This document shows positions 13,168-20,583 of a stretch of DNA of 23,622 bases, in pieces. The stretch comes from a virus. The stretch lies in the IMG/VR virus record IMGVR_UViG_3300049914_000158, positions 1-23,622 of that record; one strand, given 5' to 3'. The notes below the pieces were generated by a model that was not told where the DNA came from, did not search any database, and saw nothing but the letters and a program-made list of their open reading frames with translations. Position 1 is the first letter of the stretch. Each line of letters starts with the position of its first letter. Made by a program: the position numbers and the translations under genes.

Positions 13168-13580
13168 TTTTTTCTCCGTGAAATCTGTGGCTAAAATTAC
13201 CTATCAAAACTGCGAACCCGGCCTCAAAAAACAATCCCAAAGCGGGGCGAGTGCCTGAAAATCTAAAATAGCCGCTTGAAATCGCGTTTTACCCTGCCAA
13301 ATCCGTCCCGAAAGCGGGGCAAATAATGCCCTCAAAATGTCATAAGTGCTTGTAAAACAAGGATGTAAAACGAATAAAAAAAATATTTCAAGCACTCGCC
13401 CCGCGCCAGGCTTTGATCCGCTTTCTCTAAAGTTGCGGGAAGGACCCGCAACATAAGTCCTTAAACTAACATAGCTTATAAGCGTTATTATACGGTTTAT
13501 TGTTGCTTTTGCCATCGTTTTAATCTTATCTATTTTAACGCAAGTCCTTGTTTTACATCACTTTACATACATAAAATAAA
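13168..13580. other. Structured non-coding control region
   Basis: No convincing gene lies here. GCGGGGCGAGTGCCTGAAAAT (13242-13262) is nearly the reverse complement of 13385-13404. GTTGCGGG (13432-13439) / CCCGCAAC (13445-13452) form a hairpin with a five-base loop, and AAGGAC/GTCCTT interlock with it. TGTAAAACAAGGA (13351-13363) recurs inverted at 13545-13557. TGTAAA boxes occur four times: two direct (13351, 13364) and two inverted (13552-13557, 13562-13567). GCTTATAAGC (13474-13483) is a perfect palindrome. The set suggests a promoter-operator region with a long structured leader, or a replication origin near the replication-like gene. Confidence 0.6.
13474..13515 (-). promoter_or_regulatory. 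Possible promoter with operator palindrome
   Basis: The minus strand has TATAAT (13492-13487). Sixteen bases upstream is TGGCAA (13514-13509), a weak -35 match. The palindrome GCTTATAAGC (13474-13483) lies just after the -10 box, near the expected start point, where a repressor could bind. The transcript would have a leader of about 310 bases before the gene at 13167. Confidence 0.4.
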
Positions 13581-14792: not shown

Positions 14793-14987
14793 TTATTTCC
14801 CGAACCAACTCCATCCCATCAAGTCCTGTAACAGCTTCAAAATCCCGTGTTTTTTGACTGCCGCGACTCTGCCCATCGCAAAATCTTGTTCATCAATTTG
14901 GTATTCAACAAGGCCTTTCTCTTCGGATATTTTCACCGCCGTTATTACCGCGAGCGTTTTGCCTTTATCTTTTATTTCGATTACCAT
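14793..14987 (-). CDS. Unknown 64-residue protein
   Basis: The product begins MVIEIKDKGKTLAVITAVKISEEKG and ends DLMGWSWFGK. It has an N-terminal beta-rich half and a C-terminal helix (MGRVAAVKKHGILKLLQDLMG). Its ATG overlaps the stop of the zinc-ribbon gene within ATGGTAA and has no good ribosome site of its own, so translation is probably coupled. I do not recognise a family. Confidence 0.55.
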   Translation of the reverse strand: MVIEIKDKGKTLAVITAVKISEEKGLVEYQIDEQDFAMGRVAAVKKHGILKLLQDLMGWSWFGK

Positions 14988-15151
14988 CTTTTTTTATAAA
15001 CCTTCCTGGCCGGCAGTTTTGCTTCTACCGGCACATCTATCGGCTCAAAATTGCCGCCGCCGCACTTGATACATTTTTCCGGTCTCGGATCACATTCATA
15101 ATTATATTTATCACTGCAATCATAACCACACTCAATACATTGCCATCGCAA
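14981..15151 (-). CDS. Small zinc-ribbon protein, TTG start or frameshift product
   Basis: The 56-residue frame begins with TTG at 15151 after AAGGTGAG, and reads LRWQCIECGYDCSDKYNYECDPRPEKCIKCGGGNFEP, a clear rubredoxin-like zinc ribbon (CxxCGxxC ... CxxCGG), then a basic tail. The same frame is open upstream to 15295, through the AP2 gene's stop codon, but has no ATG, GTG or TTG there (IDIEKDLQDEAAIARFRRLEKGE is protein-like). It could therefore be made by -1 frameshifting from the AP2 gene at 15277-15283. It ends inside the start of the next gene. Confidence 0.6.
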   Translation of the reverse strand: MRWQCIECGYDCSDKYNYECDPRPEKCIKCGGGNFEPIDVPVEAKLPARKVYKKRW

Positions 15152-15270
15152 AACCGTCTCACCTTTTTCGAGCCTTCTGAATCTTGCTATCGCCGCCTCA
15201 TCCTGTAGGTCTTTTTCAATGTCTATCCGCCGGGCAGGCGAAACAGATTCAATCTTCCCGACAGCGGCGG

Positions 15271-15711
15271 CTACGGAAAATTTCGTTTTGGCAAACCGTT
15301 CTCAACGAATATCGAATCGGCTTTTTTAGCCGCTTCAATTTCATTGCTGAATAATCCGCCCCACTTATTCCCTTTGCCTTTTACAAAAACTTGAACTTTC
15401 CACTTACCTGACGGTTTGTCCAATAAAACACCAACATATTTTGAGGTTTTTCCCATACGCACCGCTCTTGGTGTGCCTTTAGAGGGCGATATATTTTGGG
15501 GTATGGTTCCCGACTTGCGTCCTCGGCGTGTCGGCTCTGGCGGTACTGGTTGCGGAGCTTTCAGCTCGACTGGTTCGAATCCCTTGAGCCTGCCTCCTTC
15601 CTGACATTCTACCTCGATTGTTTCCTGGCTTTCAACATTCTCTAAAACAACAATTGCCCGTTCGAGCCTGAAGATAGTTTTCCCATCCGTGAAAAATCTA
15701 TTGTTACTCAT
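15271..15711 (-). CDS. AP2-domain DNA-binding protein
   Basis: I choose the ATG at 15711, encoding MSNNRFFTDGK, because AAAGG lies six bases ahead; the frame extends seven codons further only through a hairpin. The 146-residue product ends in an AP2-type domain (about 91-146): SKYVGVLLDKPSGKWKVQVF, KWGGLFSNEIEAAKKADSI, ENGLPKRNFP. Phage AP2 domains usually belong to homing endonucleases or transcription regulators; no HNH motif is seen here. Residues about 60-90 are a Pro/Arg/Lys linker. A canonical-pattern slippery heptamer lies two codons before the stop codon. Confidence 0.75.
   Translation of the reverse strand: MSNNRFFTDGKTIFRLERAIVVLENVESQETIEVECQEGGRLKGFEPVELKAPQPVPPEPTRRGRKSGTIPQNISPSKGTPRAVRMGKTSKYVGVLLDKPSGKWKVQVFVKGKGNKWGGLFSNEIEAAKKADSIFVENGLPKRNFP
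15277..15283 (-). promoter_or_regulatory. Candidate -1 ribosomal frameshift site
   Basis: On the minus strand the AP2 gene reads CGA AAT TTT CCG TAG. The heptamer A-AAT-TTT has the X-XXY-YYZ form in the right frame. Slipping back one base enters the zinc-ribbon frame, which is open to 14981. Downstream, CCGCCG and CGGCGG can form a G/C stem after a few bases. Confidence 0.4.
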
Positions 15712-15723
15712 TTTGTGCCTTTC

Positions 15724-15792
15724 TTCTCGCAAAGCGAGAACTCCCGGGTTATCACCGAGTTTTATTCCTTGAAATAAAACTCAGAGGGAGCT
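15724..15792 (-). repeat. Class A composite element at the radical SAM gene end
   Basis: CTCCC (15741-15745) and GGGAG (15786-15790) enclose the perfect stem GAGTTTTATT (15757-15766) / AATAAAACTC (15773-15782). The second hairpin TTCTCGC/GCGAGAA (15724-15740) lies just before the GAAAGG site of the AP2 gene. The element supplies the last codons (LPLSFISRNKTR) and stop of the upstream gene. Confidence 0.82.
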
Positions 15793-16636
15793 GTATTATT
15801 TTCCTGATTGAATCTTTCCATCTGATATACGGTTTATCTTTCATCAGTTCATAAATTGATTTAACAATTGCCGGCTGTGATACCGCCAATAGCGGCCTGA
15901 CAAATCTTGCCATTTGTTCTTCGGAAACCCCTGTCAGGTCAACCCGCTGCTTGAAGTTTCGCAGCAATCCTATCCAAAAACTATCTGTGATGAATTCTGC
16001 GGTCGCAGAGTAGATATGGTCAACAAACCCATCCAGCAACGGCTCGCAACTTATGCTTGTCTGATACCCGCTTTTGTATGCATAACACAGGCAGCTCATA
16101 CGCTCTTCGAACCTTGGTGCTGAGGGTTCCCAAAAGGCAAGCGTTTCATCGTCGGCTGAACCGATAGTGAACCGCCACATAATTTGTTCTCTGAACCTCT
16201 TAAACTCATCGCATATCGCCGTAACACACCCCCAGTGCGGCTTTGAGACAATTAGCACCTGATTGCCTGCCTCCAGCAGCTTTTGCAGCACAGTAAGGCA
16301 ACTGTCGAGGTTTCCGGGCGTTATATCGTGGGTCGAGGGGAACATTACGGGTTGTCCGGAGGGCAACCCCCGATTTGTCTGAAGTTTCCTACCTTGACAA
16401 GGAAACTTAGAGGGGGCATCTTTGTATTTGGGATATTTCGCATTGACCTTTTTCTGATTTATTGCAGGCTCTGCCCATTGTTTTGCTGTACATTTATGAA
16501 ATCTGTCAACCGCATCGTGCCGGGCATAGCAGTACCGGCAATTATTCTCGCAGCCGAGCTGGATATTAACATTCGTCCCTGCCCATTCTCGTGTGCCTGT
16601 CCTGAGCGAAATCGAAGGGGCGGTTTTAGCTTTCAT
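15752..16636 (-). CDS. Radical SAM protein, phage Gp37/Gp68-like (DUF5131 type)
   Basis: The 294-residue protein carries the radical SAM cluster motif CENNCRYC (Cys29, 33, 36) in VNIQLGCENNCRYCYA, and later family stretches PVMFPSTHDITP, NQVLIVSKPHWGC, WRFTIGSADDETLAFWEPSAP and SISCEPLLDG. The substrate of these phage proteins is not established; relatives include spore photoproduct lyase-like enzymes. Three palindromic elements touch the gene: residues about 5-14 (PSISLRTGTR), about 73-96 (APSKFPCQGRKLQTNRGLPSGQ, an insertion before VMFP) and the last 13 residues. The start overlaps the preceding stop by 11 bases. Confidence 0.82.
   Translation of the reverse strand: MKAKTAPSISLRTGTREWAGTNVNIQLGCENNCRYCYARHDAVDRFHKCTAKQWAEPAINQKKVNAKYPKYKDAPSKFPCQGRKLQTNRGLPSGQPVMFPSTHDITPGNLDSCLTVLQKLLEAGNQVLIVSKPHWGCVTAICDEFKRFREQIMWRFTIGSADDETLAFWEPSAPRFEERMSCLCYAYKSGYQTSISCEPLLDGFVDHIYSATAEFITDSFWIGLLRNFKQRVDLTGVSEEQMARFVRPLLAVSQPAIVKSIYELMKDKPYIRWKDSIRKIIQLPLSFISRNKTR
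16349..16417 (-). repeat. Class A composite element inside the radical SAM gene
   Basis: CCCCC (16367-16371) and GGGGGC (16412-16417) enclose AAGTTTCCT (16382-16390) / AGGAAACTT (16400-16408), with core CCTTGAC. A second hairpin, GGGTTG/CAACCC (16349-16369), adjoins. It is read in a different frame from the copies at 9485 and 15741, yet remains open. Confidence 0.82.
16596..16622 (-). repeat. CCTGAGCGAAATCGAAGGGG-type repeat
   Basis: The plus strand reads CCTGTCCTGAGCGAAATCG followed by AAGGGG. I recognise this as a dispersed repeat seen in many environmental bacterial genomes. It encodes residues about 5-14 of the radical SAM protein, just after its start codon. Confidence 0.65.
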
Positions 16637-16919
16637 TGGGAATTGTCCGTTCTACTAATCCTATTTCAACTTTAAATTTCTCAATCGCATTTTCCGCCAG
16701 GTGTTTTGGGGCTTTGATTTTTAACATATATATCGCTGTTCGATCCTTGCCGATGGTAATTATTTTTTTCATCTCCATTGTAATTATTGGCATTTTCTTT
16801 GCGCACGCACTGCACAAATCCGGCTCAATCCAAAAGCATCCACCCGGGCAGGCTTTTTTGTCCGTGCATCCGCAAACCCGACAGGTTGGGGCTTTATTTT
16901 TTTGCTTTTTTGTTGGCAT
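16626..16919 (-). CDS. Small phage protein with conserved cysteine motif
   Basis: I choose ATG 16919 with GGAG seven bases ahead; the frame upstream reads only across the ParB-like gene. The 97-residue product has CRVCGCTDKKACPGGCFWIEPDLCSAC (about 13-39), a six-cysteine motif that recurs in unassigned phage proteins and probably binds metal. The rest is a basic segment and a helix (APKHLAENAIEKFKVEIGLVER). It overlaps the ParB-like gene by 26 bases and the radical SAM gene by 11. Confidence 0.72.
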   Translation of the reverse strand: MPTKKQKNKAPTCRVCGCTDKKACPGGCFWIEPDLCSACAKKMPIITMEMKKIITIGKDRTAIYMLKIKAPKHLAENAIEKFKVEIGLVERTIPNES

Positions 16920-18504
16920 TAGTTTTCTCCATTGTCCATGATTTAGGTACTGGATATTCCACAACGGCCTTTTTATACATTTCAGCGATGTTAATGCCGA
17001 GCAGCTCCGCGATCGCCTTGGCTGATTTGATATTATCATCCGGGGTTTGAGTTATCGCCCCGCCGTATGTCACCTCTGAAACCAGATTTGGTTTGACGGC
17101 CTCAAACAGCATCGCGGCCAGCTTGTCAACATTTTGGCCGGTCAGGCTCTTAGTAAATTTTGCCATAACTTCCCGCCCGCCATAACAGCCACTGGTACCG
17201 TTATTTTTTTTGACGGCGTTTTCGTACGTTCCTATAAACACCGCCAGTTTCAGGGCCATAAATACTTCATCTTTATCTTTTTGAAGTTTAACATTTTTAA
17301 TTGTGGTTTTGTCGATGGCGACCCTCATTTGCCGCAGCACAGAAAACCACCGCTTGCCCTCGAGTTCTTTTGTTCTTTCCTTCATAGGCCTTTTTACCAG
17401 TTGTCCATCTTCACCCTTTGCCTTTTTCAATGATCCACCGGACTTTGAAACCGGTATGATGTATTTGATCTGCCCATCATCCGTTGATAATGCCGGTATG
17501 GCCTTGTCGTTGTTTTTTGATACCTCTTTATATTCTCTGTTAAAAAATACCTGGCCAAACGATTTACGGAGTTCATAGGCTCCGCTGCTATATTCGTCCA
17601 ATCCTGATATACAAACCAGTTTGGAATGTTCTTTTCTGAGTTCGCCGATTTTGCATAACAAATACGCTTTCGACCGGCAGTGAAAACATTCAGAATCGAG
17701 ACATCTATCATTCTTCTTGAGCTGCTCATCATCAAGCGTATTGTCAAATAGTCCCGGCTGCCGGCTTGTTCTTTTGAGACATTTATCACATCGTACCGTT
17801 TTCTTTTTGCCATTGATTGATATCTCAACGAGTTCTTCCATCTGCCAGGGCACTTTGCTTAAAGACCTCATGAGTTTCGCAACATATTGTTCCACATCCT
17901 GCACAGTCGGAGTTTCTCTGTATTCATACTGGCTAAGCACTTCAAGCTGCAGATCATCCGGCAATCCTACGATCTGCTGGATATGCGATGCCGTCCAATC
18001 TGCAAAACTGCTGTTTTTCGCGAGTACGTCTTTTGCTTTTTTACAGAATTTGGTTTCTATCGCGACCCTCTGAGATACCCACTTTATGCTCTTGCCGAGT
18101 TTGCTCGCCGCTGCGGCGATATCACCTTTATATTTTCTAAGCATTATCGCAGCTGCCCTACCTTCTTCCAGTGGTGACAAATCTTCCCTGCCGAAATTCT
18201 CAAAAAATGTTATATCAAAAGCATCTTCATCGCTGATATCAAAATGAATATTACAGCCTGCGGTTTCAATCTTTGCATCGCTTGCCGCGACCAAACGCCT
18301 GGACCCTGCCAATAGTTCGTATTTGTCCTTCTGTTCCGGATGCGGCCGGACCATAAGAGGTACTTTGATTCCACCTGCCTTTATGCTCTCGAGCAGGTCC
18401 TTGAATGATTGCGTGTTTACGTTCACACGCTGCCGGGGGTTATTGGCACTGGGAATAACATCTTTTAAATTCAATACTTCAAATTTGATATTTTTCGATT
18501 CCAT
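16894..18504 (-). CDS. Large ParB-like protein with zinc-type cysteines
   Basis: The 536-residue protein has a ParB/sulfiredoxin-type N-terminal domain: PSANNPRQRV, the LAGSRRLVAA motif (about 65-74, GSRR), and FFENFGREDLSPLEEGRA (about 100-117), which matches the ENxxRxxLsPiEEA region. A helix-turn-helix follows (DIAAAASKLGKSIKWVSQRVAI, about 128-149). A CxxC...CxxxxCxxC cluster (Cys239, 242, 268, 273, 276) and a long C-terminal part of unknown function follow. ParB-fold proteins can be CTPases that load on DNA, but phage members vary. The start has AGGGAG upstream. A second ParB precedes it, without an adjacent ParA. Confidence 0.8.
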   Translation of the reverse strand: MESKNIKFEVLNLKDVIPSANNPRQRVNVNTQSFKDLLESIKAGGIKVPLMVRPHPEQKDKYELLAGSRRLVAASDAKIETAGCNIHFDISDEDAFDITFFENFGREDLSPLEEGRAAAIMLRKYKGDIAAAASKLGKSIKWVSQRVAIETKFCKKAKDVLAKNSSFADWTASHIQQIVGLPDDLQLEVLSQYEYRETPTVQDVEQYVAKLMRSLSKVPWQMEELVEISINGKKKTVRCDKCLKRTSRQPGLFDNTLDDEQLKKNDRCLDSECFHCRSKAYLLCKIGELRKEHSKLVCISGLDEYSSGAYELRKSFGQVFFNREYKEVSKNNDKAIPALSTDDGQIKYIIPVSKSGGSLKKAKGEDGQLVKRPMKERTKELEGKRWFSVLRQMRVAIDKTTIKNVKLQKDKDEVFMALKLAVFIGTYENAVKKNNGTSGCYGGREVMAKFTKSLTGQNVDKLAAMLFEAVKPNLVSEVTYGGAITQTPDDNIKSAKAIAELLGINIAEMYKKAVVEYPVPKSWTMEKTNANKKAKK

Positions 18505-18532: not shown

Positions 18533-19603
18533 TTATTTTTTCGTTTCGGCCTTTGCTTTGATCGCAGCCTGAATTTTCTTTATTACCCCCGGGCATTCAT
18601 TCGTAAAGAAAACAACCATCGGTTCGCTGATAATTATCTCTTTTTTATTTTTATTCGCCGTACTGCCGATCGTCAGGAACGCCGCCGCATCCCTGAACGT
18701 GATATTTCTGCCGTCCTTCGATAATGTTGCAATGCCGTCGATATTAAGTTCAACTCCGCCTAATTTGATATTATCATCTTCGCTGCTGCCCTTGGCGCCT
18801 TTAGGCATACTATTTTTCTGGTCTTTTGTCGGTCTTTGACCGACCCCCGCCCCTTTGAAGTTCTCCGATTTAAATTTCTTCTCGCTTCGAGAAGGAATTT
18901 GCGGGGCGCCTTTAGCTCTTTTTGCGATCGCCACCGATGGATGCCTGTCTTCTTCGTCCGGCTGTGAAATCGGCAGCTTGCCGCCTTTGAGTTCATCAAT
19001 GATTTCCTTGGCCCGCTGTTCAGTCGCGGGCGGCTTTGTCGTTGGCGCAATCTGATGGGCCGCCGCCCTTTGTATATCCTTCGGCAGTCCGTAAAGCAAG
19101 TAAGCCTGATGCACTGGTAAAGGGTTCGTTTGGCGGGTTATCATTTGTTTGATATCTTCCGGCAGTTTGAGCAGATTCAATCGCCGGCGGACGGTATCGA
19201 CGGTATAATTAAATTCCTTCGAGATTTGCTCATCGGTAAAATTGATCTCAACGAGCATTTCCATACCCCTGGCCTCTTCGATTGCATTCAACTCTTTGCG
19301 ATGCCTGTTCTCGGCCAATGTCATCCGCAGCATTGTTGTTATATCGAGGTTCTCAAACACCTTCGCCTCAATAGTTGTCACACCCCTGCTTTTCGCCGCT
19401 GCCTCAATACGCCGCTGACCGGCGATGAGCCAGTATTTGCCTTCCTTATGATTCACAAGCACCGGCGCCAGCTGCCCGATTTGTTCGATGGATTGTTCCA
19501 GCGATAAAAGATTCTCGTCGTTGGCTGTCGGGGTTCTCGGATTAAACCCATCAGGGATTTGAATTGATGCTATATCTAAAATTTCAAATTTTCCTTCACT
19601 CAT
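18533..19603 (-). CDS. ParB/Spo0J-family protein
   Basis: The 356-residue product has the standard ParB N domain: LSLEQSIEQIGQLAPVLV, the CTP-binding-type motif AGQRRIEAA (GQRR at 62-65), and LAENRHRKELNAIEEARGM (ENRHR at 98-102). A helix-turn-helix (FTDEQISKEFNYTVDTVRRRLNLLKLP, about 122-148) follows. Residues about 232-253 (APQIPSRSEKKFKSENFKGAG) come from a class B palindromic element in the linker. The C-terminal part (about 275-356) is unlike common ParB dimer domains. AAAGGG lies before the ATG, preceded by a composite element. Partition without ParA is unlikely; regulation or DNA condensation are alternatives. Confidence 0.85.
   Translation of the reverse strand: MSEGKFEILDIASIQIPDGFNPRTPTANDENLLSLEQSIEQIGQLAPVLVNHKEGKYWLIAGQRRIEAAAKSRGVTTIEAKVFENLDITTMLRMTLAENRHRKELNAIEEARGMEMLVEINFTDEQISKEFNYTVDTVRRRLNLLKLPEDIKQMITRQTNPLPVHQAYLLYGLPKDIQRAAAHQIAPTTKPPATEQRAKEIIDELKGGKLPISQPDEEDRHPSVAIAKRAKGAPQIPSRSEKKFKSENFKGAGVGQRPTKDQKNSMPKGAKGSSEDDNIKLGGVELNIDGIATLSKDGRNITFRDAAAFLTIGSTANKNKKEIIISEPMVVFFTNECPGVIKKIQAAIKAKAETKK
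18845..18906 (-). repeat. Class B palindromic element inside parB
   Basis: CCCCGC (18845-18850) and GCGGGG (18901-18906) enclose a 13-base stem, 18872-18884 with 18888-18900 (one G-T pair). In frame it gives PQIPSRSEKKFKSENFKGAG, alignable with the terS insert PQFSLTRSKKIKSKQLKGAG. Confidence 0.85.
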
Positions 19604-20442: not shown

Positions 20443-20583
20443 TCAAAAATTACTATCAACTCTTATTTCAAAATCACTATCATCCTTATCTTCGCTGTTG
20501 TAAGCCATATAAACGCTGAACACTATCCAGGCAATCACACCGATTATAATGGCGAAATTTTTAATTTTTTCTTTGATGCCCAT
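20443..20583 (-). CDS. 46-residue single-span membrane protein
   Basis: The frame runs from the ATG at 20583 to TGA at 20443. It encodes MGIKEKIKNFAIIIGVIAW, then VFSVYMAYNSEDKDDSDFEIRVDSNF. A basic N terminus, one hydrophobic span (about 10-29) and an acidic C-terminal tail give an N-in topology. AAGGG lies eight bases upstream, within the end of the preceding gene, which it overlaps by 23 bases. It stands directly before the lipoprotein gene. Candidates are a small holin, an inner-membrane spanin-like partner or a superinfection factor. Confidence 0.65.
   Translation of the reverse strand: MGIKEKIKNFAIIIGVIAWIVFSVYMAYNSEDKDDSDFEIRVDSNF

Follow-up and report, generated by a model that had tools for sequence, protein, structure and literature searches.

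Separate translation weighed against −1 frameshifting at the junction of an AP2-domain gene and a zinc-ribbon gene in a tailed phage

Introduction

Genes expressed by −1 frameshifting, among them dnaX, the IS3-type transposases and the phage tail assembly chaperones, have an in-phase X_XXY_YYZ heptamer near a stop codon and an ORF that continues in the −1 frame. In their review, Atkins et al. draw attention to E. coli sites that are highly shift-prone, and these end in A_AAG (PMC5009743). In the GeneTack survey, recoding was ascribed to 146 of 19,430 frame-transition clusters, and across its 1106 genomes the transitions found in orphan genes were attributed to gene overlaps (one third) and to sequencing errors and indels (two thirds) (PMC3711429). 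The survey figures led us to keep the prior for frameshifting low.

The phage locus described here shares the heptamer and the continuing −1 ORF with these systems. By contrast, no relatives of the pair turned up in which the junction is conserved, no internal Shine-Dalgarno sequence was seen, no structure exceeds background, and the second ORF here has a strong separate start. The first ORF (ORF1) carries the YxGV..GKW..G.F..EIEAA..NFP pattern of phage AP2-domain proteins (PF00847, PHROG 99) and the same NFP end. Those proteins are usually HNH-AP2 homing endonucleases, whereas no HNH motif was seen in the N-terminal half of ORF1, its N-terminal 80 residues matched nothing, and its Pfam score lies below the cut-off. 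The second ORF (ORF2) resembles rubredoxin-like and small zinc-ribbon proteins in its CxxC..CxxC arrangement, with a predicted strand before the first cysteine and another after the last, but differs from them in having no family match above threshold in Pfam, PHROG or NCBIfam.

Results

The window, that is the whole stretch of DNA that we analyzed, comprises 23,622 bases and is the entire IMG/VR virus record IMGVR_UViG_3300049914_000158 (G+C 46%). Its minus strand carries all recognizable genes, including the head module of a tailed phage (terminase subunits, portal, head maturation protease and major head protein). The best relatives of the terminase are ~32% identical and, among sequenced genomes, reside mostly in Omnitrophota MAGs, which points to Omnitrophota as a possible host phylum; no close relative of the phage was found in phage records. 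An alternative genetic code was rejected because TAA, TAG and TGA each terminate genes in the window.

Adjoining the AP2 gene, positions 15752-16636 (minus strand) encode a Radical-SAM-like protein with the motif GCENNCRYC (PHROG 13321, E 4.6e-12; Pfam Radical_SAM weak), whose one distant relative among phages lies in Dulem virus 36. Positions 16894-18504 and 18533-19603 (minus strand) encode a tandem pair of different ParB-like proteins, each consisting of ParB_N plus HTH, and a locus in an Omnitrophota MAG (L106) carries a relative of the first of them ~6 kb upstream of its terminase gene. We also noticed a gap of 413 bases without a convincing gene (13168-13580) and a short ORF, beginning with ATG and scoring well for coding, that spans the gap between two listed genes (20445-20583, minus strand).

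The AP2 gene and the heptamer at its 3' end read as follows:

15271-15711, minus strand: ORF1, AP2-domain protein of 146 amino acids; ATG at 15711, alternative TTG at 15732; ends ..LPKRNFP-TAG
15277-15283, minus strand: heptamer A_AAT_TTT (AAATTTT) in the AP2 frame and in X_XXY_YYZ phase, its TTT two codons before the stop

Residues 90-133 of ORF1 match Pfam AP2 (PF00847) with E 8e-4, at a score of 20.1 bits that falls below the curated cut-off of 33.3. The protein also matches the AP2 part of phrog_99 (HNH endonuclease; E 2.8e-8) and the AP2 domain of plant TEM1 (E 0.003). Its terminal RNFP, in frame 0, lines up with the point where other AP2 domains end, and most of the related viral AP2 loci (n=16, several near-identical) likewise end near an NF(P) motif (..LNFPI, ..LNFPKDK or ..TNF, each followed directly by the stop). 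The AP2 domain of ORF1 is complete in frame 0 and reaches the canonical NF(P) C-terminus. A zinc ribbon follows AP2 in none of the 16 related loci. A single-sequence structure model of the AP2 protein was too poor for use (pLDDT 37), and a likeness between the N-terminus of ORF1 (GKTIFR..FEP) and ORF2 (GETVLR..FEP) was discarded as not significant (p 0.05-0.15).

On the minus strand the AP2 ORF closes with the codons ..CCA AAA CGA AAT TTT CCG TAG, of which TAG occupies 15273-15271. A first-pass annotation of this DNA had placed A-AAT-TTT in the correct frame two codons before the stop, and we found it there, at 15283-15277. The annotation had further described the −1 frame as open for about 100 codons to the end of the zinc ribbon, with no usual start codon before 15151. 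In line with this description, the frame is open for 106 codons, from 15301 to 14984 (stop at 14983-14981), and the first ATG, GTG or TTG within it is TTG 15151. A slip at the heptamer would yield 145 + 98 = 243 amino acids, close to the ~245 residues that had been proposed. In-frame XXXYYYZ heptamers number 39 in 5,767 codons (1 per 148), so that 0.07 are expected by chance in the 10-codon overlap; the presence of one there is suggestive only. The G/C stem that had been placed downstream can indeed be drawn, after a 6-nt spacer, but the RNA following the heptamer folds no better than its shuffles (MFE z-scores of −0.65, +0.42 and −0.45 for 54, 74 and 103 nt, pseudoknot-free folding). By eye, no internal Shine-Dalgarno sequence was seen in the 30 nt upstream of the heptamer.

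Beyond the AP2 stop, the −1 frame continues through a stretch that precedes the zinc ribbon:

15152-15274, minus strand: 41 −1-frame codons, coding-like by codon score and with no canonical start, VAAAVGKIESVSPARRIDIEKDLQDEAAIARFRRLEKGETV
Peptide across a slip at the heptamer: would read NF-SVAAAVGK; predicted −1-frame peptide VAAAVGKIESVSPARR..

The −1 frame had also been called protein-like, a view that codon usage upholds for 15274-15152. Under a model trained on the phage's clear genes, these codons score 0.22-0.23 bits/codon, compared with a mean of 0.165 (sd 0.126) for genuine 40-codon windows and a mean of −0.185 (maximum 0.125) for open off-frame windows; the highest-scoring 41-codon open window in the contig's intergenic gaps reaches 0.200 bits/codon. 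Dinucleotide shuffles were both open and equally coding-like in 0.18% of cases, or ~5% somewhere given the ~25-30 gene junctions in the window. Positive codon scores also occur just upstream of real starts here, for example at 19714-19603. The −1 frame upstream of 15151 is probably coding, and its coding-like character argues against a plain intergenic gap. A structure model places two helices, at low confidence, in the product of this stretch.

The zinc ribbon, its translation signal and the gene that follows are arranged as below:

15159-15164, minus strand: Shine-Dalgarno sequence AGGTGA, 7 nt before TTG 15151, read from the sequence
14981-15151, minus strand: ORF2, zinc ribbon of 56 amino acids from TTG 15151, MRWQCIECGYDCSDKYNYECDPRPEKCIKCGGGNFEPIDV.., from the ORF list and its CxxC knuckles
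14793-14987, minus strand: next gene, 64 amino acids, its ATG overlapping the ORF2 stop (ATGGTAA)

With a 13-nt anti-Shine-Dalgarno sequence, AGGTGA pairs at −8.5 kcal/mol, which beats 83% of the phage's assigned starts and is reached by 3.6% of random internal NTG codons. With a 9-nt anti-Shine-Dalgarno sequence the pairing is less striking (−4.6 kcal/mol, a value that 21% of random starts reach). The phage's starts for which the upstream sequence was checked are all ATG except for one GTG, and a TTG start is thus unusual here. ORF2 contains two CxxC knuckles, CIEC..CIKC, around which strands 40-46 and 76-82 pair in a moderate-confidence model; in this prediction, the zinc ribbon's first strand starts two residues ahead of TTG 15151. 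Starting at M-R-W-Q-C gives a compact zinc ribbon, at the point where small zinc ribbons often begin, and one other viral zinc ribbon begins 7 residues ahead of the same W-x-C-x-E-C-G-Y motif. PHROG 7391 aligned to ORF2 with E 0.08; it matched neither 145 genomes nor controls, so its lack of matches is uninformative. A PDB structure search with the ORF2 model returned no confident match and nothing better than E 0.17. Where ORF2 ends, a run of seven A (14984-14994, minus strand) directly precedes the ATGGTAA overlap with the next gene, which is itself shifted by −1 from the ORF2 frame; the phase of this run makes no canonical heptamer.

We sought the pair of genes in several collections. Searches of IMG/VR with ORF1, ORF2 and the neighboring radical-SAM and ParB proteins gave no relative that carries an AP2-zinc-ribbon pair. 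A search for the fusion in GTDB contigs and in 384 genomes of the Ca. Velamenicoccus phylum found no pair, a search with ORF1 or ORF2 found no phage or plasmid record that has it, and no terminase or methyltransferase relative screened for AP2 and zinc ribbon has both. One zinc match (locus L065) was rejected, as its zinc motif sits inside a protease gene, and the match at another locus (L008) is short and weak. No homologue of the pair, on which the decisive test of junction conservation would rest, turned up in the collections searched; near-identical records may be missing from these scans.

Discussion

We favor an arrangement in which the AP2 and zinc-ribbon genes are translated separately and the −1-frame stretch between them is a remnant, and we give it an even chance; our weightings of the four explanations considered here are judgements, not computed probabilities. 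The AP2-domain protein would end at its natural C-terminus, NFP-TAG, and the zinc ribbon would start at TTG 15151 from its own AGGTGA, giving a 56-amino acid rubredoxin-like protein. The stretch 15274-15152 may be what remains of a zinc-ribbon gene that has lost its original start and that formerly extended further, or shared a frame with its neighbor. Judging by their families, DNA binding is the probable role of the AP2 part, and contact with protein or nucleic acid the probable role of the zinc ribbon. Separate translation is favored because it explains the coding-like stretch, the Shine-Dalgarno sequence and the AP2 end with the least machinery. The strong Shine-Dalgarno sequence at TTG 15151 and the complete AP2 end in frame 0, both left unweighed in the first-pass annotation, argue against the need for a fusion. 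The same arrangement sits less easily with the 41 codons before TTG 15151, which are coding-like in the −1 frame, with a predicted first strand that begins ahead of a TTG start unusual in this phage, and with a Shine-Dalgarno sequence that loses strength against the 9-nt partner; the remnant idea has no supporting relative.

On current evidence, programmed frameshifting ranks second, behind separate translation, and we regard it as doubtful. The Asn and Phe tRNAs would slip at A_AAT_TTT and re-pair to AAA and TTT, producing a minor 243-amino acid fusion beside the 146-amino acid AP2 protein, to which TTG 15151 could add a free zinc ribbon. Such a slip would explain the missing start: past the AP2 stop the −1 frame keeps its coding-like character, and it offers no canonical start until 15151. 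The phase of the heptamer, its distance from the stop and the drawable stem all fit, and pea enation mosaic virus uses a similar site, G_GAU_UUU_UGG_UAG (PMC5009743). However, A_AAT_TTT ends in UUU, unlike the highly shift-prone E. coli sites ending in A_AAG (PMC5009743), no stimulator was found in either the fold or the upstream sequence, and no relative of the pair turned up to show conservation. The AP2 domain complete in frame 0, ORF2's own strong Shine-Dalgarno sequence, the unremarkable fold and the ~7% chance of the heptamer together leave the frameshift reading weak. That a phage of an uncultured host makes a minor AP2-zinc-ribbon fusion by −1 frameshifting at A_AAT_TTT, a recoding context not met in the literature searched, we consider unlikely. 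A non-AUG start of ORF2 upstream of the TTG is the least probable of the four explanations. Candidate codons such as ATA 15190 and ATT 15220 have Shine-Dalgarno energies of −5.6 and −5.0 (phage start median −5.35), but AUA and AUU start codons are rare and neither accounts for the coding-like stretch back to 15274. Scarcely more probable is a one-base indel near 15270-15290, arising in assembly or as a real mutation, that broke a continuous AP2-zinc-ribbon ORF. The coding-like character of the −1 frame reaches all the way to the junction, and in the survey of 1106 genomes errors and indels were credited with two thirds of the orphan frame transitions (PMC3711429). Yet the homopolymers here are just 3-4 nt long, the break would need to fall within ~2 codons of the natural AP2 end, the related AP2 proteins carry no zinc-ribbon extension, and no other clear frame break was found elsewhere in the contig.

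If frameshifting at this site were true, a putative DNA-binding protein would join tail chaperones and transposases as a setting for phage recoding. For now, the locus illustrates that a slippery heptamer and a neighboring open −1 frame are weak grounds for proposing recoding unless the start signals of the second ORF are checked.
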